Assembly: GCA_033439255.1 (NCBI GenBank)
Contig: CM065881.1
Location: 3,494,912-3,558,911 of the forward strand
Origin: Hericium rajendrae
Taxonomy: Eukaryota; Basidiomycota; Agaricomycetes; Russulales; Hericiaceae
Direction of reading: 5' to 3'
Length of the DNA stretch: 64,000 nucleotides
A model generated the notes under the pieces. The model was not told the origin of the DNA and ran no database searches. It worked only from the letters and a program-made list of their open reading frames with translations. Below, piece after piece: positions 127 through 22,893 of the stretch. The translations under genes and the position numbers were made by a program. The number at the start of each line of letters is the position of its first letter. The stretch's first letter is position 1.

Positions 127-1760
127 CTAACCCCAAAGGTTCATAATCTCGGACAGCCCATCAACATACCTACTACCTTTGATCGGATGTGTCTCTAGGA
201 CCTTCGCAATCTCGTCGAGATCCTCCTGCGAGAGTTCGACCGCACCACCTGCGAAATTCTCTAGGGTACGGTCCTTGCGTCTGGAGATAATTACAAGTGA
301 GTGCCAAATAAGCATGGACTGCGAGTAGACTCACGAAGAGCCAGGAAGGGGAATAACATGTTCCCCGAGGTGGCCCACCCATGCAATGCATAGCTGAGGG
401 AGGGTGATCTTCTTCTTATCTGCAATAGTCTTGAGAGCATCCACGAGGGCAAAGTTGTCCTTCATGATCTGTCAAGATGCATGACGTGAGGAGCACAAAT
501 TAAAAATTTAATAGTGAGGCTCACATCCTCTCGGAATCGAGTGAATTGACGGCGAATGTCACCCTCTGTAAATTTTGTTAGATAATGTGAAATTGACAGA
601 GAGTAAGTCATACCTTCAAGATCTTCTGGTTTCTTGATCTGACCAGTCAGGAATCCCCTTCCAAGTGGCCTGATGACAGGTTTAGGTAAGGAGTAGGCCA
701 CTATATCAAAAGACTACTCACGAATATGCTATCACAGCAATGCCCAACTCCTTGCACATTGCAATGACTAGAAAATTATGAGACAAACCAGCAGGAAGGT
801 ATGCTGCATTTCTCACCATCCTTTGTAGGCTGAGTGTAGGACCAGGGACTGACTTCAATTTCAACCCCCGAGACAGGAAAAACCTACACATGCATACTGT
901 AGGTTCTACTTCAACAAATAAGCTCCAAAATTTGATGACTAACCTTGTTTGCACGAAGGACTGTTCCAGCACCTGCTTCAGACAGCCCAATGTGATTAAA
1001 TTTGCCCTCAGAGAGCAATTTGGACAGCTCAGTCATGGTGTGCTCGATTGAATAATTTGGGTCGATACGAGCACATGCAAACATGTCCATTGTCTTCTTG
1101 CCACGCAGTTTCTCGTTGATGTTATCAACACTCTGTCGCAGTCCTTCGGGTCTGACGAAAGATATTAGTAGGTCACCGGAATCTCCTTCGAAATATTACT
1201 GACGAAGCATCGGGTATGAGTGTTTCGCTGATGCCGCCCTAAGAAGTATTGAATGATGTCATTAGACCGCAATGAACCGTGACAGAGAGCACGACAAACT
1301 TTAATCGACAAGAACACCTTATCGGCATACTCCGGATATGCCTCGAAGAACCGGGCGACGAGCTCGATGTTCAAGGTCATCGAACCCATGCCATAATACT
1401 CAGCTAGATTCGTCGACGAAGTTAGCAAGGTCGGTCGCCGGTTAATGGAGATGACGCACCGCTACTGATGAACATCTTCGTACCGGCAGGCAAGCTATCC
1501 AAGCCCGCCTTGATAGCCTCGAAGCATTGCTCGTCGGGCACCGGCGTCGGCTTCCACCTGCAAGCGCATTCAGCAGCGCATAGGCGACGAATCGCAGTCA
1601 AAACAGGATGCGCACGTCATGAACATGAGGCCGTGCTGTGTTTCGCGAGCAAACGGTGAGCATTCTGTCTGTCCGACGCATGAAAAGCAGCACGTACGCC
1701 GACCTTCGCCACGACGACGTCCGAGGCGGTTCCACCGAGCTTAGCAGTCTGCTGCACCAT
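127..1760 (-). CDS. Aldo/keto reductase, pyridoxal-reductase type
   Basis: NADPH-dependent aldehyde reductase of the AKR superfamily, cytosolic by family. Splicing about ten short exons gives a continuous protein of roughly 330 residues. It opens MVQQTAKLGGTASDVVVAKVG, continues through a tiny exon HGLMFMT, then AEYYG (catalytic Tyr), VFLSIK (catalytic Lys), GGISETLIPDASS, CARIDPNYSIEHT, HIGLSEAGA, IAYSPLGRGFLTG and WVGHLGEHVIPLPGSS, and ends SEIMNLWG. The CARIDPN segment, where other AKRs have a His, is typical of yeast pyridoxal reductases. An in-frame ATG at 1817 is an alternative start, but the shorter N-terminus fits the family better. In cluster context it could reduce an aryl aldehyde to the alcohol; this is inference. 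No frameshift was seen. Confidence 0.88.
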
Positions 1761-2779
1761 GTCGTGGTATTCAAACGGGCGATTGGCGGGAGAATGAGAA
1801 GGTAGGGAATTCTTCATGCGGCAGATTTCGCCTGCAGTGCGTTATACTTAGAGTTGGCCACCCAGTGCAGCGTATACACGGAATAGAATCCCCCGGACAG
1901 GTACGGTCACCGTATCATTGAATGGTCACCGTATCATCGAAGGGTCGCTGTTAACTTCTCTTCTTCCTTTGACAGCTGTCACGGAGGGGAAGATCGGACG
2001 CAATATGCATGCGAACGGACAGATCTTTCCCAGAGGAAGACGTCGGAGAGATGCGTCCACAACCCTTTCTGAGGGAGGACGTGATGCTACATTCAATTGC
2101 CTCGTAGCATCGCACCAAGCGGGCGGACAAGGGCCCAAGCGTCAGAAGAACATCAGCGCTGCAATGCAGGGAAACCCGCATCAGAAGGAGAACATGTATG
2201 AATCCCATGTCGTACGCGTGAGAGCAGTCATAGCAGTCGAGCGCCAGGATGAGTCTTCCCTGAAGCAGGGGAAACGAGCGCATCTCAGCTGGCGTGGAGA
2301 TACGCGGAGAAGGTCTGCACGACAGGGGCGGTTGGAGCGTGTGGTGCGCCGTCAGAGGTCATGGCGTGCAACGGTGATTGAACCAGCGCGTGCGCGACCC
2401 TGGATGTCAGTCTTGCTCGACGTTACCATGGACGCAGCGCTGAAAGGAATTTGTAGTCTTTTATCGTCGCAGAGAGAGCAGCTTAACCCTAGTTATCGCT
2501 GAAGACCGACGCGAGAACGCGGTCGACGTCAGACGCATAGCGCCTGTACGATCAATGAACTGACTCAATCATAACGCAAAGCAGTGAATGGCGAAAAGAT
2601 GTGTTAATTCTTGGTAAGTAGACGTAGGGACGCATCCGGCTGTGCTATACGAAGTCACGAAAACTAGGAGTGCTTCAAATTGACGGTATGCTCAGCCTGC
2701 CTGCTCAGCCTTGATGATATCTGCCGCCTAAACATACAGGGTGGTGAGATGCTAACCCGGAATCAGGACACAACCAAAC
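1761..2779. other. Intergenic, no supported gene
   Basis: This stretch lies upstream of the aldo/keto reductase. Open frames exist on both strands near 1918-2502, but they are rich in Arg and His, lack recognisable motifs and overlap each other in opposite strands, so none is called. A near-duplicate short phrase (ggtcaccgtatcat) occurs twice around 1905-1937. The promoter of the reductase should lie just above 1760-1817, but no clear TATA box was seen. Confidence 0.5.
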
Positions 2780-3330
2780 TGTCAACGTGCTCCCTCCGCG
2801 ATGGCGTATACAGTCGTCTGAACTACCCCTTCGTTTTGACAGTCCTAAGCAAGCAACTCATGAAGGGAATGATAGACGCGTCCACCTGAGAATATCCCAT
2901 CGTCAGAAGGTTTCCGGAATGCATCAGGGAACGTACTCATCACCCGAAGATTCTGGTCCCGTGTACTTTCAGATTGCTGTCGATGACGCCCCCGCCCTCC
3001 CGCGGCAGCATCGCCGGGGTGCCGATGGGATGGTTGAAACGACTCAGTCTTAGCCCTGACGGACTCTGCGAGTTCTTCATCTATGTGTAGACTTGCGGGA
3101 GGATCGTAAGCACGGCGTTGTGCATCGCTGAGCGGCTTCGTCTCGATGATGCGACGACAGAATTTGATCCTTGCAGCGAGGACGTTGACATCGGGGGGAT
3201 TCTTCGGATACGCTGGGTCATCAAGCCTCTGATATCATTGAAAAAAGCGCAGGGACTGGAATGCTTGCCCGTCCCCTTTACCTGCCATGATACATACTAG
3301 TATATGGGCGAAGGCTTCCATTGGACTCGC
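2780..3330 (-). pseudogene. Decayed GMC oxidoreductase C-terminus (aryl-alcohol-oxidase-like)
   Basis: The minus strand holds scattered C-terminal pieces of a glucose-methanol-choline flavoprotein oxidase in the right order but in different frames. They read AYPKNPPDVNVLAARIKFC, a stretch IIETKPLSDAQRRAYDPP, then HPIGTPAMLPREGGGVID and NLKVHGT, and finally TVYAIAEG. The HPxGTxAM block carries the family's active-site His, and the following GGVID...LKVHGT and VYAIAE blocks are the standard C-terminal substrate and FAD-domain motifs. At least two single-base frameshifts and in-frame stops separate them, so the gene is dead. No convincing N-terminal FAD motif was found above 3330. The family oxidises primary alcohols, including aryl alcohols, and makes hydrogen peroxide. 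That chemistry fits the neighbouring cluster. Confidence 0.72.
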
Positions 3331-5236
3331 CCGCCTATACTTAGGCACGGCTGCGTCTGCGGTCTGCTGCGGTTTCACAAAACTTTGTAAGAGCACAAGC
3401 CCAGGAAGAAAGCCAGAGCCTGGCGTCGATCCTGCCGTATGGATCACTAGGTGAGCACGCTAAATGGGTGGAGACGCAAAGAAGAGAGAAGCGAGGAGGT
3501 TAGCCCAAAATGCAGACGCGAAATAATAGTATCGACCAAATATCGACCATTATGCAGAGAACTTGAAGAGCGCGCGAGCGCTCTGTGGGCGCTTGAACTT
3601 CGGCGCGTTCCGATCACCAAGAGAGCATCTGTAAGGACAATCTGCCGGCGCTGGGCAGACGCCGGGGACGTGAAGGCAAGACTGGACACAGCTGAGAAAG
3701 TGCGGACAAGATACAGCAACATCGATTAGCCCTTTGCTGAGCGCCCTATCACAGGCAGCTCTGGGAAACCAAGGTTCAATTCTCCGCCGCTAGATACTTC
3801 TATGTGGGCATGTTCTGATACCCAGCCTCCACGACGCATGGCTTCCATCGTTCTGTCCTTCTGCAGAGGAAAATTTCCTGTAGACCTCATTATCAGACAA
3901 TGCACTCAAATGCACCGCCATATTGATCTCAGCATGCAGAGCGGGATAGTTCGGGATAGTCCGTGCGAGCAGTCTATGTATCTCGGTGCGAACAGATCTT
4001 TTCTTGATTTGACCATCTAATTGTTCCCGTCTCGGAAGAAGGTAGATGAAAGAGAAGTGTAGCCCCTCTGGCGTCAAGTACAGTACCCTGTTGAAGTTGT
4101 TGCGACACCTCAGGCCTCAAGGCTGACACTCGACGATGGGCGACACAGCAAGGTTCCAACGAATGGCATGGCATCATGTCTACGACAAATGGTCTTGAGC
4201 CAAGGAGGTACGCCAGGACCACGGCGGAACAAGGCTAATCTATTATAGTGGCTCATGATTCTTCCCTCCAGTAGTCGTCAATGGTTCGCTCAGGATTTCC
4301 CGACGCTGTACTCAACATGATCGTTCGTGCTGGATTACGGCGCGTGCTTCAAACTTCTATCGAGTGGTCATGTGGATGTAGATGGAACCCTGTGTCACGG
4401 CTATATTCACGCTCACAGCTTCGCTCGCTACTGTGCGATATCTCGGGTTTCATGGAGCTTCCTCGAAGCTGATCAGATTCGGCATCTACGCATTGGTACA
4501 ATGACCTTCACATTCCCTTTTGGCGACCCTTGCGAACCTCGGTGTGCCCTTCAATTCCGACGCGATGAGAGAAGGCCTGACGGCGCCCGACCTGTCATCA
4601 GACCTAGGACTGGTTTGACGACGCGTCTTGTCGCAAGACAATGGCAGCAGCTACAGCGTTGTAGTTGGTGCTTTCAGCGGTGACCTAGAACCGCCGTTCA
4701 TAGTTGCTCTGCTGCAGTAAGTTAATATCTCAATCACCAGAAAGTAACGTATAATGTCTCATGGGACTATAGCCCGCTTATTTAGATGATGCTTTACCAA
4801 GGTTGATACAGACCCTCGGCTGCTTCTCCATCGATGCTGGATTCAAGCCAGAGGCCGGGAAGCGTTACGTACCTGCAGCACGAGCATAATCGAATAGCTC
4901 CATCCGCTCTTCCATGGCCCCGTTTTTGTCGTCTCCGCCGACCCTCTGGCCTGTCATCGACTCGGCCTATCTCAAACTTCGACTTGACTCGCACCCAATA
5001 TTTCGAAAAACAGTCACCGACTTCTGATTCTATCTGCAAATTATTGGAACGTCAAGCAGGTCCATTTACACGTCAAAATGAAACAATAAATAAACATATT
5101 TCCATGAATGCTAAGAGCTTCGTCAATGAAAGGTGCAGATCTCGGTTCGAGAACAACAATCATACCAGACGCCGAGTCCGGCGGGGATGATCTGCGCTAC
5201 CGCTCTCGATCGGTTAAGATGAGGAGGAAATGCAAA
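3331..5236. other. Degenerate intergenic stretch
   Basis: No gene is supported. Short open frames occur on both strands without motif support. A phrase LANLGVPFNSDAMREGL around 4527-4580 (+) looks protein-like, but it ends in a stop after a few residues and has no identifiable flanks, so it may be a relic. The missing N-terminal part of the GMC oxidase may also lie here in decayed form. Confidence 0.4.
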
Positions 5237-6547
5237 TCAAACACTGATTTGGTCGTCCAAATCGTCTCTCATTCCATCCTTGCGTTGCTCCACCTGTCTG
5301 GTAATCTCGATGGCCAGGGGTTGCATTGCATAGTTGGACTTGACGGTACCTCCGCTCACGGTTCCGACACTGCGTTGCGGCGGCAGGTCCACATGCATAG
5401 ACTGCAAATGCATTGTCGACTGCAAATGCGTCGTGTTATTCTTCTGCCGCGGCTTATAGTGCGCTTGCAGGATAATAAGACAATAAATTATGCCCTGGGC
5501 GACCCAGCATAAATATATCTCAACAGCATGAAATAAGCGGTATAAGACGACACTTACCACAAGAGGGATCGGTACGTCCAAAGCGGGCCACTGTCCGTTT
5601 GAGTTGGCGAGGTACGTTGCTAGATACGCGATAAGATCCGCCGTATACAAGGCGCTGCTTTCGACGACCACCGTCATGACCAGGAATAAACTGCGTCTGG
5701 AAGTACTATGGCGCGCGCCTTTCTTCCAGATTATATATACTATCCCACCTAGATTTCACGACAATCAGCGTTCTGTCCGCGCATTGGTCGAGAAAAACAC
5801 ACTGCTGCAGTAGATATTGCCGCTCACGGCCAATATGACATGGGGCGTAAGAACATACGCAATGGCGGGGAAAGGCACAGATTGGGCTAGTTTGACGACG
5901 ACGGTGGTGCCCAAAGCTGGGAAAGCTTTCGTCAATGGCACTGTCAATGAAGGAGATGAAACTCGGTCGTACAAAGCGTGGAAAGAGTGCAGAGGATTGG
6001 AGGAATGACAACAAATATGTTCTTGTTAGAAACCAGGAACAGTCTCCATATCTAGATATCTGTAAGTGTCTGCTCAATCTAAATATGACACAGGACTCAT
6101 ACGCACATTGACCCACTCGCCAAGAGCAAACTGCGCGACGAGTAGGGCAATTTTCCCCGTATACAGTTGGGTTGCGAAATTTCCGTAATATTCCACGGCC
6201 GGAACGCCCCTGGTGAATGCATCGAACGCCCGGACGATATCTATGATAAAGTACTGGCGTCGACATGAGTGCAGTTCCGGAACGATCAGTTCACTGGAAA
6301 AAGAAAGGCTTACCGATGTGGAACAGCCCGTCATCAGCACCAGCACCACCGTCAACCACCTGACAGGCTGTCTACTGCTGCTTCTCCGATTCAACATGGT
6401 CGCCGTAATGATTGCAAGGACAATGAAGATACCTACATCAAACTGTTTCAGTGAGATGGTTGGCATTTCCAGCAGGTCACCATTACCATAGAATATGCTC
6501 TCCAAGATCAGAGCAAGCAACTCTGCACCTACGAAAGAGAGGGACAT
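5237..6547 (-). CDS. Multipass integral membrane protein, Agaricomycete family
   Basis: Spliced on the minus strand, this gives a hydrophobic protein with several membrane segments. The pieces are MSLSFVGAELLALILESIFYG, FIVLAIITATML, WLTVVLVLMTGCSTS, then after an intron YFIIDIVRAFDAFTRG, GKIALLVAQFALGEWVN, and an ESSALYTADLIAYLATYLAN helix. The C-terminal cytosolic tail contains QPLAIEITRQVEQ. This layout matches a large, functionally uncharacterised family of about seven-helix proteins expanded in Agaricomycetes. Intron edges at about 6318/6256 and 6114 are clear; those between 5680 and 6060 are less certain. The first ATG in frame is at 6547. Upstream codons are open and family-like, so a further 5' exon is possible. 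The role is unknown; it could be unrelated to the cluster. Confidence 0.62.
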
Positions 6548-7511
6548 GATGCTGAGCCCGTTGGCGAGGGGCTGAGCTCCGGTGGGAGGGGGGAGGTGCA
6601 ATCAATATGTCTGCTTCGTGCGTCAATAATGTCGACCGTTAAGAGCGTCTTACGGAATATCCAACAATAGACACTATGCAGCTTGAGCTTGCGGCTTGAA
6701 GACGAGAGGATAATAAGGGTTTGGGTTCGACGTATCATGATAGCAAGTCTTCGCCGGCGGGGCGCTGGCTCACGACCATCAGTCTATCCTCGGTCTCTGA
6801 TGTTCTCTCCTTGCGATATTGGGAGATGTGACACAAACACCCATAGACCCTGACACCCATGCACAGCTGGCGCAAAAAGTTCGAACCGAGCGCTTTCGCT
6901 CTGGGTGAATGTCAAAGCGGACTGGTTCCTGTCCTCCCACGCAAAACTGTATTAGTAGACGGGTATCAATAGAAGGAGCGACTCACAGCAACCGACCGGG
7001 AGGCAGCGATTGAGCTGGCGTCTTCAGAGGACTCTATTGTGCATAACGGCATCGACCGCCTGACAAGCTCCACATCGATGAACGCACCAGACCGGCCTGA
7101 AATTGCCTTATCCACTCTTCTGGACGATTTCTGTAGATCATTGTCAGTGAATGTTACCGCCCGCGCAGTTTTTCAACTGGAATCAGGAGTCAAGAATCTC
7201 GACGGACGTACGCGTCCTTGTTGCTCGCTGGTTGCACCAAACGGATCCCGTCGAGTGAACAGAATTCTGACTGGTGTGGGGCAAACTGAACTGAAGAAGA
7301 TCTCCTGCACATATTCTACTGCATGCACCGCAGAATTTAATGCATGTAAAAAAAGGCCACATAGAACCGACGAAGCAAAGGCCACAAGCTCAACTGATGA
7401 TGTTGCATTGCAACCGCCAACTCGAAGTCAATTCCGAAAGCGTCAGAATCGGAGGGGATACAGTATGACAGCCTCTCCTTGCCTCCGGAATATCAGGCTG
7501 GACTCATGCCA
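6548..7511. other. Intergenic region
   Basis: This separates the start of the membrane-protein gene from the 3' end of the O-methyltransferase. A plus-strand open frame at about 7039-7692 runs antisense into the methyltransferase. It is Arg/Ser/Thr-rich without motifs, so it was not called. Confidence 0.5.
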
Positions 7512-9246
7512 TCAAGCATCAACCCTTAGCTCTGTTATCCAGACTAAACCTCTGCAAGGCCAGATCTTGACGACCCGAAGACCAGCCTGCGCCGCGAGCG
7601 ACTGCAGGTCCTCCGGAGTCCTCTCGCGACCATTAAATTCTGCCATCATGTTCAAATCCCGCATATGCGCGAAACGAGTGGCAGAACCGTAGTTGGCAGG
7701 CAATGGCTCTGGTGCAGATGGGATGGATTGTGAGCCGCAGGTAGTGTTCATTACTTGATCGCAGATGAGGATGCGAGAATCACACCCGGGTATGAGGGCA
7801 GGGCGAAGGGCGGATAAGATCCGGACACAGTTCTTGTCGTCCCAGTCGTGCCTACGCGTGGTCAGATCGAAGACCAAATACCGGATGGGTGAGACGCACA
7901 AAATGTACCGTAGATTGTACACTTGCGCACCCTTGATGGGCTGCTCGGAGAAGAAGTCGTGCGCCATGAGCTGGACACGTTGCGACCCCAGTGCGACGGA
8001 CATCTCTTGTTGCCAGACGACGTTGCCTTGTGCTACCACCTCGGGTTGATCTTGAACGACGAATCTTAAATTTGGATATCGCTTCGCCAGATCAAGGCTC
8101 ATGCCGCCTGCGTAAAAGCACGCTCAGGTGAAGACGGAAGCACTCAAGTGGAGAGAACGAACCGACTCCTCCACCAACGTCAACCAGAGTCGCGGAGCCC
8201 AAGGAACCCCACGGGTAATCTAGCAACCGTGCGCTCTGTTCAGAACAAATTTTTCATCGCACGGTAAACTGACCGTGGTAGAGAGGAGGGCAGAAGACAC
8301 GACCACCTCCGATCATTCCAAGATTGAACATTTCGGCGACAGATTTTTGGGCCGGCTCTTTCATCCAGGACCAGAATGGAAGCGCTGTGCCCGCGGCTTC
8401 CTGGAAAGCGCAATCCACGTTGAGCTCAGATGGACCTTTTACAGGGTCAGCCAAAACATATGGAAGCTTCTCAGATGAGGCGTATTGAATGCCAGACCTG
8501 CATCATAGACGAACGCATGAGCAATCAGAAAGACAATTATGATGTACGACAAGGTTCACATCGACATTATCCAGGCTCGAAGAGAATCGTTGCCAACGAG
8601 GCATTGACTAGTCGGACTATTCGCAAAGCAATTCGGTTGGACCTCCTGAAATATGTGTACTGTGCATAAGCAGCGTAGTACTTGACCTGGAGTGCAATCA
8701 AGGCATGTCAGCGTTTGAGAAAAAATGTCTGCGAACAACAAGTTGAAAACGGTTCATCTGAAGGTGCGATGCAGTGCGCAAACACTAACAAATACAAGCG
8801 CTCCCGCCTCGACGACGCCGAGTCCGTCGATCCAACTGACTGAAAACTCGTGAAGCCGTACCCAATTTTTGTTCTTTTATACTGGACTGTTGGCTCAATA
8901 TCTCCAGAGGGACACCGGGTCCTGCATCTGCACTGGCAAGCAGGTCTGCAATGCGCCGCTCGACTGCAATATGCAACGCCCGGGCCTCGAAATATTGGCT
9001 ACAGACCTCCATCAAACGGCTTCGTGGTTCTTGAACCATATCTACTATCATTCCGCTAGCGGCCAAAGCAACTCTTTGGGCTTGGAAGACCTCAGATGAT
9101 GGTAGATGGTCTTTGTCTGTTTCGTCCTGCGGTTGTATCTTGTCTTCATCTGCCTCCCATTCCCGAATGATGGTTTCAGATGCATCGACAAGAAGACTGA
9201 CCAAGGCTCGTAACTTGCTGGATCTAGTGGGTGTGGTCGTAGACAT
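7512..9246 (-). CDS. SAM-dependent O-methyltransferase (COMT-like)
   Basis: Transfers a methyl group from SAM to a hydroxyl, typically a phenol, in fungal secondary metabolism. The start MSTTTPTRSSKLRAL leads into the helical dimerisation domain, which includes AVERRIADLL, a winged-helix segment KLGQVLRCLCTVHIFQEV and FANSPTSQCLVGN. The Rossmann core begins with SATLVDVGGGVGG, the SAM-binding glycine loop. It continues with RFVVQDQPEVV, NLRYILHDWDD (the conserved HDW block whose His is the usual catalytic base) and ends WITELRVDA. Introns split KLG/QVL, YIL/HDW and GGGVG/GMSL with good GT-AG ends. One splice near 8560 is uncertain. It is divergent from the halogenase, with 645 bp between starts, which suggests shared control. 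The natural substrate cannot be read from the sequence. Confidence 0.9.
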
Positions 9247-12165
<2,919 letters not shown>

Positions 12166-12405
12166 GGTGCGCTTTCGACTTCGTGGTTTCCATCTTGCGC
12201 AAAACCTGTCGCCGGCTCACACCATTTCTGGCCGCGAATCATGGAGGAGGCCCCTAGTGCGATCTTCTGTGCAGAGGATTTCACATGTACTTGTAGCTTA
12301 TATATACGATTGGATTCTTGTCCGCGGTTCAATAGCCGGGTCATTCCGTATCTTTTTATGCTCCGTTTCATTTATCCGCGATATTGACTATCCATCTTCA
12401 CATGT

Positions 12406-15400
12406 TTATACCGAAAGTATAGAATGTATGTACTTGTCCATCCAATGCGTCGCACCGCCCACTGAACCCAGTCGTGGGCATGCTCGTACAGTGCCTGAGG
12501 TGTCCAGCTTGGTACGCTCCCTTCCATCCAAGCTTGTCGCATGTTGACGATAGAAGTCGATGAGAGTCGCTGCTGCTGGTAACTGCTGTCCAATATTGGC
12601 CGACGAAGAAAGCCTTGTGAGTGATTTCAACCATTCTGTGGTCGAGACCGGCCGCACGCCACGACCGCATGCCGTGACACGCTCCACCATCTTCGACCAC
12701 GCTGTTGCTTCGGGGTTCTCGAGGTGCCAGTAAGTTGCGGATGAGGAGATCTGAGGACCTGCAGTGCCTTCAATAGACAAGTTCACGACAATCTCGCCGG
12801 CGATATTCACTGGTATCCAGCGAAGATCCTGTATGTATGGACGTTAGCAATTCCTTACTAATAGGTAACGAAGTACGCTGACAGGAAAGTCCTCCGGGAT
12901 AGTACCGATTTCAAAGCTTGATCGTAGTAGGATGGGTATGAATTCTTGAGGTTTCCATGCACCATTCACTGTCGACCCGGAGAGTTGCCCGCACCGGATG
13001 ATGAAACTTGGTAGACTGGCAATGACAGAAGCTCTATCGATGATCCTTTCCGCGACATATTTCGATTGCGAATAGCCGGTTTGTCCAGCCACGATGGCAG
13101 GGTCATTCAAAGACATTTCGGGCACCACACCAGGATAGTCGGACACGGCGCCGACGGATGAGATGAATATGAAGAAGGGTGGGGATAATCTGTGGGAAGA
13201 CAATGCCAAGTCTGCAAGGCTCCGAACGCCAGCGATGTGGGCAGCAAAGTTGTCTAAAGTGAGATTGAAGTTGAGCTGCCATGCATTGTGGATGATGTGA
13301 GTAACGGTTGAGCGGATCTGAAATACCGTGAGATGTTATTCAGTTACTTAAAATTGATCACAGTACCTCAGACAGGGCTACGGAACTAAGCCCGAGATCC
13401 TCTTCGGCCAGAGCAGCATCGAGAAATACTATTCTGCTCGAATCAACTTCGTCCTGGAGAGATTTGAAAACCCCGTATTGCTCGAGCGAATTCGATTGCC
13501 TTTGGATTATGCTCGCAGATGACGGGCGGTTTAGACAAAAGACTTTGCGGACATCTTTTTGTCGTAAAAGAGATATGAGCAAATGAGAGCCAAGTGCTCC
13601 CGTTGTTCCGGTGACCAGGAATACGTGACCTTCGGGTTCTTGAGCTAAGGTAGGAGGCGGCGTGTGATGGGGAAAATCGGAAGAGTATACGTCGACCAGG
13701 GTATTTACATGTTCGTATGGGTCTCGCTGAAACTCCTGTGCTATGCCCGAAGCGTGCGCTAGGGAAAAGGAGGCGAGTTTTGAGATTGTCGGGTTCCTGT
13801 AAAGAGCTGCAGTCGAAAAACTTGATTCTGCGTCCATAGCAGGTGCGAAGGGTACACAAAACCTCCTCAAACGTGACCATATCTGGATAGCTTGCAGTGA
13901 ATCGACGCCTGAAGGCAGTATAAGGCGGTAGGTCGATGTCTGATTCAAATGAACACTGACCGTATTCGAAGAAGTTGGCATCATCGCTTATTGCCCGACT
14001 GGCCACTTGCTCAATGACAATCCTAATAAACGAGAGTATATCGGTACGGGTAAGTGTCTGGGCCGATCGGTCGCAAGATGCTACTGTTGCCAGATTTGAG
14101 TAGACGAATTCAATTTCTTCGGCATAAAGGGACAAGGTTTCGTTGGATTTTACCGAGTTCTTATCTGTCGTGACAAAAGGCTTACTTGGAGATGCGACAA
14201 GCACCATACCACGCAGTAACCTCATATGACTTGGGACCATAGTGTTGACCTTCTGGATTGTGGGCCAGATCGCGTCTATGAAGCGTTCCTGATCGTCTTC
14301 GCCGTGCGTCGGGACCACGACAACGCCTATGAGGAATCTTCCGGCACCAAAGACAAGAAGTTGGTATATCCGGGGGTCCTCCAAGAGCATGTTTTCTAGG
14401 TAAATAGCCCCAGTAAGAAGTTATATAATAGCGGGCTCGAAATGGCTCACCAATCTCTTTCGTATTTACCTTCAAACCATTACTCAAGGCAATCTGTATA
14501 ACACGAGATCAGCGCACCAACTTACCATAGTAACGGAGGGCACATTACCATAGAATCCTTTCTACCCATGTGTCTCCACAAGCCTTCACAAAAAGTCGAT
14601 TATCGTGTCTGGAAGTGTAGACATCTAGGGAGCTACGCACCTCCAATCGTGGGATGCGGTGTCCATAAATCTCCCGTAGAAAAGCCACGCGGATTGTCGT
14701 GGTTGATCACAACAGGGGTAGCAGAACTACCCGCCTAAGGGACTCAAGAAGTTAGCACCGCTAAGTAATATACAGGAAAAATACGTACAGACGCCACGAG
14801 GTCGTAAACGTTGCTCTCGCTATCGACGGGAATGAAATGGGTCTTGTAGCAATCGTGAAATCGGATATACATCCAATCATCCTTGAGATTCTGCGACGCT
14901 ATATCCATCACCACAGGAGTCGGAAGCTCCGACCTGAATGCAGTGAGTTCATCGCCGCTCAGGTCCACGACGAATGACTTACATCCCGTAACCGGTGACA
15001 AGCTTCACGCCATGATCCACCAGCGTCTGCCCACAGGCTTTTCGAAGAGGCGCTCCAGCGTAAATTGTTCTTTTCGTGTTTCTCGCTAGAATCCGAATAG
15101 CCGAATCCCCCAGATTCACCAAGTCTTCCAGAATAGCCGGAGGGAGAAGCGCGATGCATTGGGGTAGCCGTTCGAGATGGCGAATCACCGAGTCCGCGGA
15201 GAGTGGGCTTTTGCTGGATAGAAACACCGGTATCACCCCAGATCCCAAAGGGTACAGAGTATAGATGCCGTAGCCAAGACCCTGGTCCAGATACATCAGC
15301 ACACAGATATCAGACTGATTACGCTTGACATACGTGTGACAATGGCAAGGGTCCGTATAATGTATCGCCAACATACGGACAGCCCAATCCTACCCGCATG

Positions 15401-16176
15401 GCGTTTAGAACATGGTGATGACTGGCGGATATCAGCTTAGGAAGCCCTGTGAGCCAAAATCGCACTTGAGCGAAAGACCAGAGCGTAATCGGATGGAATA
15501 CCTGTCGACCCTGACGAATGCAAGTACAGGGCAGGCCGGTCCATATCCACGGCAACTTCCTCAGCAGTCGGAGACGGACGAACATACTGGCGTAGATGCC
15601 CCGGGAAGACACCTGTTATCTTAACTATATTTAGATCGGGAAGGGCTTTCAGCTCTTCGATGACATGCATGTGTCGGTCATCGACAAGGAGATCCTGGGC
15701 ATTACATGCTTGCAGCAGATGTCGAATTGAAGCAGCAGAATTCCTCGGTGACAGAAGAACCACCTTGTGTCGATTGAGCTAACAGTAAATCACAAAGATG
15801 TCGAGCAACGCACAGAGCGATCAAGCAGCCAGGCGGCGACTTGGTAGACGTAGAACTTGTAATTGCTGTCCAGCAAAAAGCCGATGGGTCCCGCCTCTGG
15901 CTGAGCTCGTTCCTTCTCACGTACCCCCGACATGAGAAGGTCGCTCGCCGCTAGCCTGGAATCAGACTGAAGGCGTTCCCAAGTAATGGACTCGATTGGA
16001 CAATCGTCGTGATCGCCATCCATAATCCACGCGAATACTCTATCGGGGTGAGCAGTGGCCATGGAAAGGTATACATCTGGGACTAGAATGTTGCAGAGCT
16101 CTGCTGGGAAGGCGTACATCGAGTTGGCTGGGTGGACTTGGGATAAAATGACGGGATAGGCCTGGCTGGCTGCCAT
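12406..16176 (-). CDS. NRPS-like adenylate-forming reductase (A-T-R, carboxylic acid reductase)
   Basis: Activates a carboxylic acid as its adenylate, loads it on a phosphopantetheine arm and reduces it with NADPH to an aldehyde. The start is the ATG of MAASQAYPVILSQ; the two codons before it are not ATG. The adenylation domain shows LHSSGSTGLPKLISASH across an intron (core A3), GYGMSELPT (A5-like), GFSTGDLW (A7) and NGLKVNTKEI. The thiolation domain reads NFFEYGVDSLQAIQIW; its Ser carries the pantetheine. The reductase domain opens VFLVTGTTGALGSHLL and has the short-chain-dehydrogenase-type GYSQSKYVAERI (Tyr and Lys). There is no condensation domain, so it is non-peptide-forming. Basidiomycete and Aspergillus enzymes of this layout reduce aryl acids or L-alpha-aminoadipate. 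The cluster favours an aryl acid. The gene ends close to the convergent halogenase. Confidence 0.88.
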
Positions 16177-16639
16177 TTCCACAGCATTTAAGTCAGCTGT
16201 GGAAAGGTGCCCGAAAAGCTTCCCTTTCTCTTCGTTCGCGGCCCTGAAATAGAACGATGAACGAGTTGGACGAAGAATACAGCATGAGAAAACATCATCC
16301 CAAACGGAGCGCCATAGCCTCTAATCTCAGCACGAGTTTCCCACAGAGGGGCCTTGAAGAGAGATGGCTACGGCATAACTTGGGCAACTGCAAAAGACAC
16401 CGAACCCGGGATACCATACTCGCTGTTTCAAGTGGGCTATTTATTGTGTCACTCGTCCACACGTAAGACGATAACCGAGGTGTTAAGCGAATCTAACAAG
16501 ATGCGGACAACAGCGCTGACAACAGTTAAGAAAAAGGGAACATTGGTGGATTACATGTGCGCGCACTCACAGTTGCTTTCACTTTCAGGTAGCGATGATC
16601 TCTATGACCTTCTTAGAATTCCACTCAGGCCACACCCCA
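16177..16639. other. Intergenic, promoter of the A-T-R reductase
   Basis: This lies between the start of the A-T-R gene and the 3' end of the NmrA-like gene, both on the minus strand. Short plus-strand frames have no motif support. Nothing further is seen. Confidence 0.5.
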
Positions 16640-19600
16640 TTAACTGAGTTCTTCTGGTTTACCAACGATGCCTTCGCCTCGAGCCCATGCCAGGTGAAGC
16701 GCACTGAAGATATCATGTGCGTTCACCTTCAACGCTGCCTCAAGTTCTTCGGCTGACCGCAAAGTGACGTCGACCTTCTTCCCCGTCTTTTCCTGGTACT
16801 GGCGAAGGATCTCGTTGAATGACTGGGTATTACATCATGATCAGACATGACCGCGACATTTAGGAAACGTGGAACACTTACAATCCGATCGCCTTCGATG
16901 CGGAAGGTGCTCCAGTGGAGTTTCTCTGCCGACAGCGTGGTGAGGATGTGTGCGAGGAAACGGGCAATATCATGGCGCGAAGTAAAAGTGATTGGGGCAT
17001 TGCCATCGGCACCGTAGGAGGCTTTTCCATTTTCGAGGTCAAAACCCAATAATCTGAACCCCGGACGATAATGAATGCATCGTCCAGCACGAAGGGCAAA
17101 AATGAAGGGCCACACTCACGGGATGAAAATCCAGTCCGAGAAGAGCCCTGTGAACGCCAGAAGATAGGGAAGATCGAGCTCCTTTAGCATGGTATGCGCC
17201 TGACGCTTCGCGAGAAGACGACCCGACTCCACGTTGTCGGTGGGTATGCCGAACTCTGACGGCAGGAAGAGGCGGACGCCTGCAGCCTTGGCCGCCTGCG
17301 CTAGAGACGCTTGGAAGTCCAGTGCGCTGGTGGAGACTGTCGAGATGACAACGTCGATGCCTGTTAGGACCGACTCGAGCGCGTTCTGCGAAGAGTAGTC
17401 GACGGAAGCAATGCGAGCTCCTTGAGAAACGAGCTTGTCGATCGACTCATTCTTCGTCGACTGTGAAGATATCAGCACTCAATGATTTAAAGGAGAAAAT
17501 GCGTGGCGTGAAGACATCAAAGGCTGCAGTTGGACAAGATTAGAATGTCTGTCTAATAGACACGATACAAGTATATTTGTCAAGTCTATAGACTGTGGCC
17601 TACTTCCGGCCCCAGTAAAGACATACGACTTTATCTGTACGACGAATACAGGTAAAGTTGTCATCTATACGGATCTAATCGTACTATGACCCTTCGGGCC
17701 GCGTAAAATAAAGACTTTTCGCGGAGTCGAACCAAAGACCAAAGGGATCAAGAGTACTGGTGTCCAAGGAGCGTGAACCACTCGGCCATACTGGCTGATA
17801 TATTGTGTTCACGTTTATATTATATATACAGCAGTCAAGTCCCCCCGGAGCAATAGTGTATACTTGTATACTTGATTATATGTCTTTGTAGATTATATGA
17901 TTCTCCATTTTCTTTGCTGCATAGGCACTTTCGCGGAGATCCGTCCATAGTACGGATACACCCGTCCATAGTACGGATATACCTGTCCATAGTACGGATA
18001 CACCCATCCGTACAAACACATCCATCCATACGGCTTCATCTGTACATACGGCTGTATCTGTACATACCGTTTGATCTGTACATACAGCTTCACCTGTACT
18101 CAGCTAGCATTACTACAGTAGCGGTATCGCACATGTTACCGATGCCTCGGTACCAGCCCCGCACTGTGACTGCTTTGTGGTTCTCGTTGATCGCCTGTTG
18201 AGAAGGCGGTCAGTTCCCGAACATGCAAACAACATATCCGCATAGAACGCACTTCAAGACACGAAGTAACATTGTAAGAATGAACGAAAGCTGACGAAAA
18301 CAAAACAAGAAAGCAAAACAGAAATCATCTATGTATATCCCATGCGCATTCTCTTCCCCATTCGTGAGTCATCCTGGCCGACCTGCTGACTCTCCTCATT
18401 GTCCTCACCACAGCCTTACTCGTCAACCTCGTCAACTTCCTTGATAACCTGAAGGCCCCACGGCGTCATCGAAATGATCAGCGGACCGGGGTTCTCAAGC
18501 CTGCTGTCGTCAACATACAATCTAGTCATTGGTCAATGACACTCACCCGTCATCAACGCCGTCCTCCTCGCCGTCCGTGCTGCCTTCGCCATCGTCCTCC
18601 GCATTGCCCTCATCAACCTCCTCGATGACCTCGAGACCCCAAGGCATTATCGCCATCGGGACACTACCAAAGTTAGCCTCCGCATTTGCCAAACGTCAAG
18701 TATAACTCACATCAGTTCTATGTCTACCGGGGCATTGGGGTTGTTATCTCCGTTGTTGTGGTATGGGTGACAAAACATTGCGTGAAGGCAACGTACGAGG
18801 GCGAGAATAGAATAGGCGAGAATAGAATAGAGGACTTGGAAGCACATGGTTGGGAGTGATTTATGGTTTTTAGTGGGTGTTGGTGGTTGTCAATGGCATG
18901 GTCAGGCACCGGAAACGGGCTTTCGAATACGACTCACCGAATGAACACAAATGCAGCCCTAGAACAGTGCTCACCCATTCGCTCATTTCCCCAACCCACT
19001 GAAAGCAGCTTCTCTCCGTACCACGTAGTCATTGTATTGTGGTCTTGACCACCTGTTATATTGTGCGTGCTCCGAGATTTCGATCTTGATCACGGCATTT
19101 TCTGCACAAGACCGTGCGGCATACTTTCTGACTTGGTCGATCGTATGCCTCAAACTTGTCCTACCCGATCCGCTGCCATGACCCGTCCCACATTCGGTCA
19201 CTCGCCCTGCGGAATTGCTACCCAATTATGCCCCAAGTCACCCCGACGCGGCCCCGTGTCTGTGCTGCACTATCCATCCTCCGTCATTACAAGCCTTCGG
19301 ACCAGTCCTTGTCGTGCATGCCCGACGACGACCGCATGATGTCCATGGTTGATGCTACGCACACAGGTGGACATGGGCTCACTCGTGGCGATGCAGGGCT
19401 AATCCTCCAGCATGCCAGGCCGCACACTTGCGATCCGCAGGGCAGCGACTCCTCAGAATCGTATCCCGCTTCCTCAACGATCAAGCTTGATGAGATCAAG
19501 GCCAACCCCATGCCCGTCACCAGTGTCCAGACGAGCAATATCGTGGTTTCACGACTACTGCAATACTCATCGTGGTCACCATTACCCCGACCGGAGACGA

Positions 19601-22600
19601 GCACCATCAAGCTCGTCAGCCTGACCGCTCAGACGGACACCGTGACCGACAGGTACAGATGGCCCTTGCCCCATCACGAAATCCTTGCCGTCGCTCCCGA
19701 CTTGCTCTGACATGTGTGGCCTGCCTCGCGTGACAACGTGCTACAAGATGGCAGCCACCTTCTGCCCGAGGATGGCTGCTAGAAATCAAGCACACCATTG
19801 CCATCTTCTAGGCTTGCTCTGGGGCTCGCCTTCCTCCATATCTTCTCCATTGTATTGTTGACCGACTGCGTGCAGGGCAGACGGTCCTCTGTCAATATGG
19901 GATATCTCCTGCAATTTCTCATCGATACACGCCGCTTGGTCTAAGTCTAGTGTGCCCTCGCCTGTCGCGTGTTCTTCGCTGACACTGTGCGGACAGACTG
20001 TGAGTCACTCGCTCCCCTTGGCACAGTGAGACACAGCGTGGCTGACATGCCAGCCAGGAGCGCATGGAGGAGTGGCACGAGAGCGGGACCACGAGGGAGG
20101 GAGCTTTGGCAAATTCGATGGCGGACGCATGCGGTGAAACATTTGTCAGTGCACTTTTGCACGCTCTTCATGCGCGAGATAATCATAAATTGGCCAGCCC
20201 ACCTATGCAAACAATACCTCGGTATCCCGCTAACGCACACCACCACCCATCTATAACGACATCATGTCAACTACCGATGTGAATAGCCCGATGCTCTGAT
20301 CGTAGAGTTGACGATGGCACCATGCCTGCCTGTTTTTCCCATCACGAGTTAGAAGCACAACCGTCAATGGCATGTATACTCACTTTCGTGCATATGCCGC
20401 CAACGCTGTTTCTCCTGCCTCATCGTGACCCTCGGCGCACCCATGCCAAAGATTCATGAAGTAATGGAAGTATCGTACAATACGTGCCATTTCCTCTTCC
20501 AAAAGGTTGATCTCCTCCCGCCAACGGTTCCTCAGGGCACTGCATCGGAACCAATGCACCTTGACGCCTGTCCGAGATCCGTTCATTAGTATTTCATCAG
20601 CGAGAGAAAATGGGCCGTACGTTCATGGCAAAACTCCTTGAACTTTGGATTCTCCAAGTCCTCAATAAACTCGAAAGTCAACCATATCCACGACGGTCGA
20701 AGCCTACTATCACCAAGTGTCTCTTGCGTGGTGAAAACTTTGAACAGTCGCACGTCGATGGCGCTCAACGATCGGAATCTTGTGTCCTTGCTCGACAAGT
20801 CCAATGCTATCAGTCTCAACCGTTGATACGCCTCAAGCTGGGTTCAGCAATGTCAGACCTCATCTCACCATCTCCCATGCAGTTCCCCTTCACTCCCATC
20901 CAGCTTCCAGCTCCTCACCCACCAACCCCGCTCAGAGCAGTGATGTCCCTCATCTCAGGAGTTGTCAGCTACTGCAGGCCTCACTGAGGTTTCCTCAAGT
21001 TCGCTCCAGGTCGTCCTCAGCAGTTTTGGTGAGCCAATCAGGTTGCTGGCATTATGGTACCAGGTCTGTGTTGTACAGGATGCCTGGATGCCGCCTTTTG
21101 ATGGTTTTGGACCATAGATGTACCATAGAGCAGCCGAGTCCGAGATCGCCCGAGACCGCCAAGGGCGAGTTTCTTACTTGTATGGTAGACAGAGTCCCAG
21201 CTTCGAATAGAACCCCTCAGTGCACCTTTCCCCCTCAGAGCTCAGACCTCAGAAGTCTCTCTCACTGTTGTTCTCATCGTTCTCCAGACTTTAGACAAGT
21301 CCGCCCTCTTTAGGCTAGTCCGCCCGCAGCGTCGTTCATCAGATTCAGTCATATCAGCCGCTTTTCAGTCCTTTTCTCTAGGATCAGTCCGTCGTATCGG
21401 AGACCCGTGTGTCTCGTCGTTCTCCTTGTCATTCCACAGCCGTTCCTCATCCTTCCCAGCCACTTATCACCAGATCGCCTCAGTACCACCCTTAGCGAAC
21501 CGGTCGCTCCATTGTTCCTGCTGCAGTGACTCTCAGCTGCCCTCACCTCACTCCTCACTTGAGATACTTGGTCCCCTTGCACCCCCCCGGTACTCTGTTA
21601 GTTTTGGTTTTGGACACCATGGGGTCTGGAGGTCATCGAGGAGGTCCACGAGGGCAACAAGGAGGACGGCAGCGAGGGCAGGGAGGGCGACGGTGAAGGC
21701 GGCGAGGACGGCGAGGACGACGAGGACGGCAGTATGGATGATGGCGAGGACAACAGTGAGGGCGAGGATGGCAGCGAGGACAACGGTGAGGACAGCAGCG
21801 AGGACAGCATCGACGACAGCATCGACGAAGGGTGAGTGCCATACATTAACGACCAGATTGCATGTTGACAACATCAGGGCTGAGAACCCTGGTGCGCTGA
21901 TTTTGACGACACCGTGGGGCCTCCAGGTTATCGAGGAAGTGGAGGAGGTTGAAGGGTAAGGGGGCCGCGATGACAATCAGGACACCCAGCAGGTGCATTA
22001 CATATAAATGCAGGTTCTTGTTTTGTTTTCGTCAGGCTTTCATCAGTATTTTGCAATGCTATCCCACTTTCTTGTAGTGCATTGTATATGGGCATCTCAT
22101 TCGCATGTTCGGATACTGAGTGCTTCTCAACAAGCGATCAATGAGATGCACAAGGCAACCACAGCACGGCGCTGGTACGGGGGGATCGGTAACACACGCA
22201 ATACCGATAAAGCCGTACTCTGAGTATCGTACAGATGAAGCGGTCTGTACAGGTAACGCCGTATGTACAAATGTAGCACTGATATATTCGTGTATATTTA
22301 TGTAGTCGTATATACCGATACATTCGTATGTACCGATGTATCTGTATGGATAGACGCTGCGTGACAGTACCTACTCGTATGCAGCAAAGGACACAAAGAT
22401 CCGTACAGATCCACCAATGGATCAGTGCTCCTGGAAGACCTTGCTGCTGTTTATGAAATCTACAACTGACTCACTAATATCAGTCAGTATGGCCGAGTGG
22501 TTCACGCTCCTTGGACACCAGTACTCTTGATCCCTTTGGTCTTTGGTTCGACTCCGCGAAAAGTCTTTATTTTACGCGGCCCGAAGGGTCATAGTACGAT

Positions 22601-22893
22601 TAGATCCGTATAGATGACAACTTTACCTGTATTCGTCGTACGGATAAAGTCGTATGTCTTTACTGGGGCCGGAAGTAGGCCACAGTCTATAGACTTGACA
22701 AGTATACTCGTATCGTGTCTATTAGACTGACATGTCTACTACGTCCAACTGAATCGCCTCGAAGACATACGGGGCGGGTGAGGAGGACGACATCTTTGAC
22801 CTTGCCTGATGCTTTGAGGCGCAGGAGTTCTTCAGCAATGAAGGCGCCGATATTTCCAACGCCGGCGATAGCGAAGCTCTTAAAGGTAGACAT
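16640..22893 (-). CDS. NmrA / isoflavone-reductase-like NAD(P)-binding protein with a giant first intron
   Basis: Atypical short-chain reductase of the NmrA/phenylcoumaran-benzylic-ether-reductase group. Exon 1 (about 22,893-22,770) encodes MSTFKSFAIAGVGNIGAFI, the Gly-rich NADP loop, through DVVLLTRP and ends at a GTATGT donor. The next exon begins at about 17,460 after TTCACAG and reads STKNESIDKLVSQGARIASVDYSS, then GIDVVISTVS, GVRLFLPSEFG, LPYLLAFTGLFSDWIF, LLGFDLENGKASYG, FTSRHDIARFLAHIL, and ends EGIVGKPEELS. The two exons join in phase 0 exactly where the family continues, so the ~5.3 kb between them is one intron carrying an inserted element. The open frame looks intact, but expression through so long an intron is uncertain. 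Substrate unknown; it may reduce a cluster intermediate. Confidence 0.8.
17527..17802 (-). repeat. Left terminal inverted repeat with tRNA-like sequence
   Basis: Reverse complement of 22,475-22,751 with only scattered differences. Shared blocks include gtctaatagacacgatac, the GC-rich phrase cccttcgggccgcg and the tRNA-like block at 17,720-17,796. The outermost bases are CAGTTGGAC. Confidence 0.85.
17723..17788 (-). promoter_or_regulatory. Pol III A box and B box in left inverted repeat
   Basis: Read on the minus strand, TGGCCGAGTGG (17,788-17,778) fits the A-box consensus and GGTTCGACTCC (17,733-17,723) fits the B box exactly. The sequence around them resembles a Ser/Leu-type tRNA, but the T-stem and acceptor do not pair properly, so it is a tRNA-derived promoter rather than a tRNA gene. 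It would fire outward, toward the exon-2 side of the split gene. Confidence 0.65.
17941..18105. repeat. Short tandem subterminal repeats
   Basis: About three copies of a ~20 bp unit (cgtccatagtacggatacac) are followed by about four copies of a related ~20 bp unit built on tctgtacatacggct. Related gtacagatg/gtatgtac repeats occur in the opposite arm at about 22,228-22,350. Subterminal repeats of this kind are common transposase-binding regions. Confidence 0.7.
18416..18720 (-). pseudogene. Acidic small-protein gene fragment, left arm
   Basis: On the minus strand, reading toward the element end, MPWGLEVIEEVDEGNAEDD and GSTDGEEDGVDDG are followed by an intron (GTGAGT ... ACAG). The last exon reads RLENPGPLIISMTPWGLQ then VIKEVDEVDE and a stop. 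The 3' flank (ttgttttgttttcgtcag) is also shared with the right-arm copy. The 5' exon is not clear, so it is listed as a fragment. Function unknown. The repeated TPWGLQVI(E/K)EV phrase at both ends of the acidic stretch looks like an internal duplication. Confidence 0.5.
20380..20819 (-). pseudogene. Possible KDZ-like transposase C-terminal remnant
   Basis: Two minus-strand pieces look protein-like and adjoin. One reads SIDVRLFKVF-like text (exactly SAIDVRLFKVFTTQETLGD) through PSWIWLTFEFIED; the other contains VHWFRCSALRNRWREEINLL and EEEMARIVRYFHYFMNLW. A Trp/Arg-rich lead-in followed by an RWxEExxLLxEEMxRI helix is frequent at the C-terminus of KDZ (Kyakuja-Dileera-Zisupton) transposase-like proteins of Agaricomycetes. 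There is no DDE core, so this is a remnant at most. The resemblance is from memory and is weak. Confidence 0.35.
21600..21959 (+). pseudogene. Acidic small-protein gene fragment, right arm
   Basis: Mirror copy of the fragment in the left arm. TPWGLEVIEEVHEGNKEDG is followed by an Asp/Glu/Gly/Ser-rich run of about 50 residues built on repeated gaggacggcagc-type units. An intron (GTGAGTGCC ... ATCAG) leads to AENPGALILTTPWGLQVIEE and the terminal VEEVEG. The antisense frame of this run is also open and was rejected. The right copy is longer in the acidic run than the left copy. Confidence 0.5.
22475..22751 (+). repeat. Right terminal inverted repeat with tRNA-like sequence
   Basis: Partner of the left inverted repeat, ending GTCCAACTG at 22,743-22,751. 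The short difference region near 22,720-22,742 includes one small indel relative to the left copy; the rest is close to identical. Confidence 0.85.
22490..22573 (+). promoter_or_regulatory. Pol III A box, B box and T-run in right inverted repeat
   Basis: TGGCCGAGTGG at 22,490-22,500 and GGTTCGACTCC at 22,545-22,555 match the A- and B-box consensus, 44 bases apart, within the usual range. A TTTT run at 22,570-22,573 could terminate a short Pol III transcript. It reads outward, toward exon 1 of the NmrA-like gene. Confidence 0.65.

Follow-up and report, generated by a model that had tools for sequence, protein, structure and literature searches.

In the ascochlorin/ascofuranone and ilicicolin clusters of Acremonium and Neonectria, a reductase resembling a nonribosomal peptide synthetase (NRPS) and a flavin halogenase serve the synthesis of one aromatic compound, and chlorination turns ilicicolin B into ilicicolin A (PMC9144378, PMC9569342; articles given by PMC number are cited throughout for the portions of them that were covered). 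The pairing of these two enzymes is already known in ascomycetes. Here we describe a trio of adjacent genes in the basidiomycete Hericium rajendrae, which encodes an O-methyltransferase, a flavin-dependent halogenase and a carboxylate reductase with adenylation, carrier and reductase domains (A-T-R). The trio lies in the terminal 64 kb of contig C4 (3,494,912-3,558,911 of 3,558,911; the genome comprises 46.77 Mb in 19 contigs), and this whole 64-kb stretch is referred to below as the window. The three genes are present side by side, read intact and carry the motifs of their enzyme families. Unlike the ascochlorin and ilicicolin clusters, which are of ascomycete origin and include a polyketide synthase (PKS) and a prenyltransferase, the trio is without a PKS match and has an O-methyltransferase instead. 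The enzyme kinds are known and their combination is new; the trio is a good but unproven candidate for the synthesis of a chlorinated methoxy-aromatic aldehyde. As far as our searches show, the open-licence literature describes no basidiomycete trio of this sort that includes a methyltransferase and lacks a PKS.

Two further systems invite comparison. ArmH1-5 of Armillaria mellea are likewise basidiomycete flavin halogenases, and they are the basidiomycete entries among the covered rows of a table in PMC9144378. They chlorinate free melleolide F and are reported outside the melleolide cluster (PMC9144378), whereas the window halogenase is flanked by the methyltransferase and the A-T-R reductase, the two systems being likened by description only. 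In the geodin pathway of Aspergillus terreus, with GedA and GedL, GedA is the nearest solved relative of the window methyltransferase, and RadH is listed together with GedL (PMC9598291). Geodin is polyketide-derived, unlike the product expected under the PKS-free reading of the trio that we favour. We know of no A-T-R reductase in the geodin cluster.

White-rot fungi (Bjerkandera and others) make chlorinated anisyl metabolites, which are prominent among basidiomycete organochlorines. Their formation needs chlorination, O-methylation and acid reduction, as the trio would supply. Organochlorine production by basidiomycetes is represented by a 1997 review in the reference list of PMC6299022, and the covered portions of PMC6299022 and PMC10231232 give no genes for chlorinated anisyl compounds. 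Our searches of the open-licence literature, which leaves subscription journals largely outside, found no report giving genes for these metabolites and none that pairs a halogenase of a basidiomycete with an A-T-R reductase. The compact three-gene set makes the old question of the anisyl organochlorine genes directly testable. As for the reductase, fungal A-T-R carboxylate reductases fall into seven clades and have their domain order and motifs in common with the window enzyme; basidiomycete members belong mainly to clade V, and the reductases of aryl acids derived from non-reducing PKSs belong to clade VI (PMC9605436). In Phlebia radiata, A-T-R genes lie near PKS, terpene cyclase or P450 genes (PMC6540522), and the word halogenase is absent from the covered portions of PMC6540522 and PMC7399148.

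Structure of the three-gene block

All gene models were spliced by hand, with final versions checked for stops, and none of the five models (methyltransferase, halogenase, carboxylate reductase, aldo/keto reductase and NmrA-like reductase) has an internal stop. The methyltransferase (9246..7512, minus strand; 6 exons, 446 amino acids) and the halogenase (9895..12165, plus strand; 8 exons, 619 amino acids) are divergent and are separated by 648 bp (9247..9894), a candidate shared promoter. The A-T-R reductase (16176..12406, minus strand; 12 exons, 1067 amino acids), recognised by its Pfam domains and spliced open reading frame, converges tail to tail on the halogenase with a spacing of 240 bp between the gene models. 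The original prediction, made from the letters of the window, had listed a halogenase, a methyltransferase, an A-T-R enzyme, an aldo/keto reductase, an NmrA-like reductase and a GMC oxidase, and all six are present at the positions given. All Pfam matches quoted here for window proteins are above cut-off.

The closest PDB relative of the halogenase is RadH (8gu0; 1.1e-109), with 129 of 235 residues identical over three counted stretches rather than the whole protein, and K77 of the window enzyme aligns with RadH K74, which we take to be the active lysine. The protein matches Pfam Trp_halogenase (5e-22), contains the flavin adenine dinucleotide (FAD) motif GxGxxG in the form GGGPSG, and its GWAWFIPL fits the GWxWxxPL signature quoted in PMC9144378. 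GedL has been termed a free-standing phenol halogenase, and RadH and ArmH1-5 appear in the same comparison (PMC9598291). From the FAD motif, the GWxWxxPL signature and the lysine, the window enzyme is predicted to be a phenol halogenase of the RadH/GedL/ArmH type. A search with the window protein gave 18 matches, which correspond to three halogenase loci genome-wide, as counted by resemblance to the window gene. A census with PF04820 was dropped, as it returned no match and missed the window gene itself because exons were scored apart. The other two halogenase genes lie at C6:2522619-2524833 and C9:991887-994858 and are 42-83% identical to the window gene per matched exon.

The methyltransferase matches Methyltransf_2 (3.8e-25), within which it carries an HDW motif, and Dimerisation (5e-06). 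Its closest solved relative is GedA (7wh9; 4e-122), with 193 of 401 aligned residues identical, and the next-best exon elsewhere in the genome reaches 42.9 bits. The model requires a long first intron of 175 nt. A frameshift was considered and rejected, since the open frame aligns with GedA across the region and the spliced model is free of internal stops.

The reductase was compared with Pfam in two overlapping pieces, which match AMP-binding (9.6e-28), AMP-binding_C_3, PP-binding and NAD_binding_4 (1.5e-36). Its adenylation, carrier and reductase domains lie in a single spliced frame and display SSGSTGLPKL, GVDSLQ with the carrier serine, and YSQSK (Y-x3-K). Ten of the 11 introns measure 49-57 nt; the remaining one, of 35 nt, is doubtful, as is the start codon. 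A frameshift by loss of two bases in the A3 motif was rejected because an intron lies there, as in the closest paralogue, L061 (C9, ~383 kb), which breaks off directly after SGSTG and resumes past the intron. Placing an intron at the equivalent site of the window gene yields HSSGSTGLPKLI, and in a PDB search its TGLPKL is aligned with identical letters of dihydroxybenzoate ligase. The best PDB match of the reductase part is chain 8aep (2e-50).

The original prediction had named specificity of the adenylation domain for an amino acid such as aminoadipate as one finding that would speak against it, and the aminoadipate concern does not apply here. The A4 motif of Lys2-type enzymes is HDPIQRD, and at the Lys2-type locus of this genome (C9) it reads AHDPIQRD, while the window reductase has SHGLGYG in its place. 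Against NCBIfam TIGR03443 the window enzyme scores 96.9 bits, below the cut-off of 1030.1. As judged from this motif, the A4 comparison argues against aminoadipate as the substrate and would exclude the Lys2 type only, because five other reductases lack the aspartate as well.

A candidate pathway and its alternatives

Our preferred reading, which we hold tentatively and at slightly short of even confidence, is that the trio forms a PKS-free block whose product is an aromatic aldehyde bearing chlorine and an O-methyl group, or the corresponding alcohol. The substrate would be a small phenolic acid, drawn from phenylalanine/shikimate or from lignin. The free-standing halogenase would chlorinate this acid, or its aldehyde, adjacent to the phenol hydroxyl. 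The A-T-R enzyme would adenylate the carboxylate, load it onto its phosphopantetheine arm and, with NADPH as reductant, convert the thioester into the aldehyde, and the O-methyltransferase would cap the phenol using S-adenosylmethionine. The nearby aldo/keto reductase, or some other fungal reductase, could then yield the alcohol. We infer the common pathway, its substrate, the order of its steps and its product. Chloro-anisaldehyde is one of several candidate products, and chlorinated aldehydes of the orsellinaldehyde type are another.

A more specific proposal is that the trio represents the route still lacking for the chlorinated anisyl compounds that white-rot fungi produce, leading without a PKS from a hydroxybenzoate of shikimate or lignin origin to chloro-anisaldehyde or its alcohol, with a pair of GMC oxidase genes just upstream of the window (L044/L043) providing the oxidative arm of a redox cycle that generates peroxide. 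We consider this narrower version doubtful. The genome contains seven loci with the class II peroxidase extension PF11895 (eight matches, two of which are pieces of a single gene), and a white-rot lifestyle is likely because of these seven loci. The lignin-decay setting of the original prediction is thereby allowed. Five class II peroxidase loci (PF11895) lie within 20 kb at C14:971330-991420.

A methyltransferase and a reductase both occur within 5 kb at only one of the three halogenase loci, that of the window; the flanks of the other two (L045-L050, ~10-18 kb on each side) gave halogenase matches only, at E 1e-4 and with the window proteins as then modelled. When 3 halogenase, 20 NAD_binding_4 and 14 methyltransferase loci, grouped by us from 18, 33 and 15 matches, were placed at random, a triplet within 5 kb arose in 9 of 200,000 placements, under a uniform and independent model that ignores uneven gene density and the general clustering of biosynthetic genes and in which a NAD_binding_4 locus need not always be an A-T-R gene. 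The absence of a polyketide synthase or terpene cyclase had been claimed for the immediate neighbourhood, and no match of either kind lies on the entire contig: exon-wise searches, whose totals are lower bounds, gave seven ketosynthase matches genome-wide (C3, C11 and C16) and nine terpene synthase matches (C5, C6, C12 and C15), with neither on contig C4. The missing ketosynthase match leans away from polyketide phenols as substrates.

Several observations weigh against the PKS-free reading. GedA methylates the polyketide phenol emodin, and the GedA-like character of the window methyltransferase leans towards polyketide phenols. In the A4 motif, the aspartate is also absent, as read by eye, from L053, L059, L061, L063 and L064. 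The adenylation domain matches aryl-acid ligases of the PDB weakly (best 1.1e-05), alongside luciferase, proline and fatty-acid enzymes; another A-T-R gene, taken as a control, matches 4-chlorobenzoate ligase more strongly (3.9e-11), so these matches do not discriminate and were dropped as an indication of aryl specificity. The route to chloro-anisaldehyde in the original prediction retains its three core enzymes, intact and contiguous, but nothing in the evidence singles out 4-hydroxybenzoate or anisaldehyde. A second reductase-methyltransferase pair occurs at C10:1402521-1404918 (~1402.9 and ~1404.5 kb; L051, L052) with no halogenase match in the fetched flanks, so that this part of the trio also occurs alone. 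Among ten pairs of five upstream regions, no shared motif was found beyond shuffles, the longest shared word being reached by 22-56 of 60 shuffles. No regulator or transporter was recognised among the frames scanned. The accessory genes counted in by the original prediction have fared less well than the core. The NmrA-like reductase is present without an internal stop but is split by an element of ~5.2 kb in its first intron. The GMC oxidase is indeed non-functional, but it is a C-terminal fragment only, related to two GMC copies upstream. The aldo/keto reductase has an intact frame but lies 5.7 kb from the trio, with the GMC fragment and one unassigned frame in between, and resembles perakine reductase rather than an aryl-alcohol dehydrogenase.

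It is also conceivable, though in our view improbable, that the block tailors an orsellinate-type polyketide aryl acid supplied from elsewhere in the genome, giving a chlorinated O-methyl orsellinaldehyde-like product by a scattered version of ilicicolin/ascochlorin-type chemistry. The closest relative of the methyltransferase, GedA, belongs to a chlorinated polyketide pathway, the ilicicolin cluster unites a PKS, a prenyltransferase, a non-canonical NRPS and a halogenase (PMC9569342), AscD chlorinates ilicicolin B, and the Armillaria halogenases likewise lie outside their cluster (PMC9144378). Ketosynthase loci that could supply such an acid are found on C3 and C11, as well as on C16, where the locus may be a fatty acid synthase. 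However, none is on C4, and NAD_binding_4 matches accompany the C3 and C11 loci themselves, within ~12 kb and ~5 kb, respectively.

We find it similarly unlikely that the three genes are neighbours with no shared pathway, in which case the reductase would have an unrelated acid as its substrate and some other phenol would be the target of the methyltransferase and the halogenase. The lack of a shared motif in the upstream regions is consistent with such an arrangement, as is the abundance of NAD_binding_4 loci (20 by our grouping), one other of which also adjoins a methyltransferase. The low frequency of the triplet among random placements and the tight divergent and convergent spacing argue for a functional grouping instead. 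Less probable still is that the locus is a decaying cluster, formerly active, that is losing accessory components and may now be silent in the strain: a recently mobile element in the first NmrA intron and the GMC fragment would fit, but internal stops are absent from the core trio and the aldo/keto reductase alike, and both damaged genes may never have been pathway members.

Neighbouring genes and a mobile element

On the reductase side of the trio lies the NmrA-like gene, a doubtful member of the pathway. Its spliced product of 272 amino acids, from four exons, matches Pfam NmrA (1.3e-21) and, in a PDB search, isoflavone reductase-type enzymes (1.5e-16). Exons 2-4 (16640..17460, minus strand) are separated from exon 1 (22771..22893, minus strand; 41 codons with the nucleotide-binding glycines) by a GT..AG intron of 5310 nt that runs from exon 1 at 22893-22771 to exon 2 from 17460. 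As an intron of 5.3 kb is unusual in fungi, the gene is probably impaired. The intron harbours a mobile element (17526..22752, outer limits set by eye), which is no part of the pathway and without which the intron would measure ~83 nt by the same limits.

The element is ~5.2 kb long and low in copy number, and is bounded by terminal inverted repeats of 257 nt (17545-17801 and 22477-22733) whose arms are 98% complementary. Whole or partial copies of its repeat number 12 across the genome. Facing pairs are found in the window and at C8:2,237,683-2,242,869, with nearly equal spacing, whole single copies lie on C5 and C8, and pieces lie on C1 and C8. The left repeat is 100% identical to a copy on C8, which indicates that the element was recently mobile. 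A search by eye resolved no target-site duplication. The repeats show a tRNA-like stretch by eye, in which ARAGORN (bacterial code) calls no tRNA.

On the methyltransferase side lies the GMC fragment (2646..3219, minus strand), whose three minus-strand frames are all interrupted by stops. At the DNA level it shares 75-84% identity with two GMC copies that lie a short way upstream of the window. These copies, at ~3483.2-3485.9 kb of C4 (L044:8286 to L043:~1000, minus strand) and 3487.6-3490.5 kb (L043:2660-5545, plus strand), face away from each other, share 73-80% DNA identity and match GMC_oxred_C (9e-29 and 1.4e-27); none of the 29 genome matches to GMC_oxred_N falls on them. The best PDB match of the C-terminal part of the L044 copy is aryl-alcohol oxidase (6.2e-22).

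The aldo/keto reductase (1817..127, minus strand), likewise a doubtful member, has 11 exons and 376 amino acids as modelled, or 359 amino acids given one further intron. It matches Pfam Aldo_ket_red (2.2e-52); among PDB entries, perakine reductase scores highest (2.2e-40). Between it and the methyltransferase, at window positions 5240-6601, are frames rich in hydrophobic stretches, two pieces of which are without a Pfam match; they possibly encode a multi-pass membrane protein. The 64 kb contain no TTAGGG or CCCTAA runs of three or more units. In the right flank, six of the nine scanned frames are without a Pfam family, and the flank is ordinary where Pfam names one, with RhoGEF/PH at 31.0 kb, an OTT_1508-like deaminase at 40.7 kb and a DDE endonuclease at 45.5 kb.

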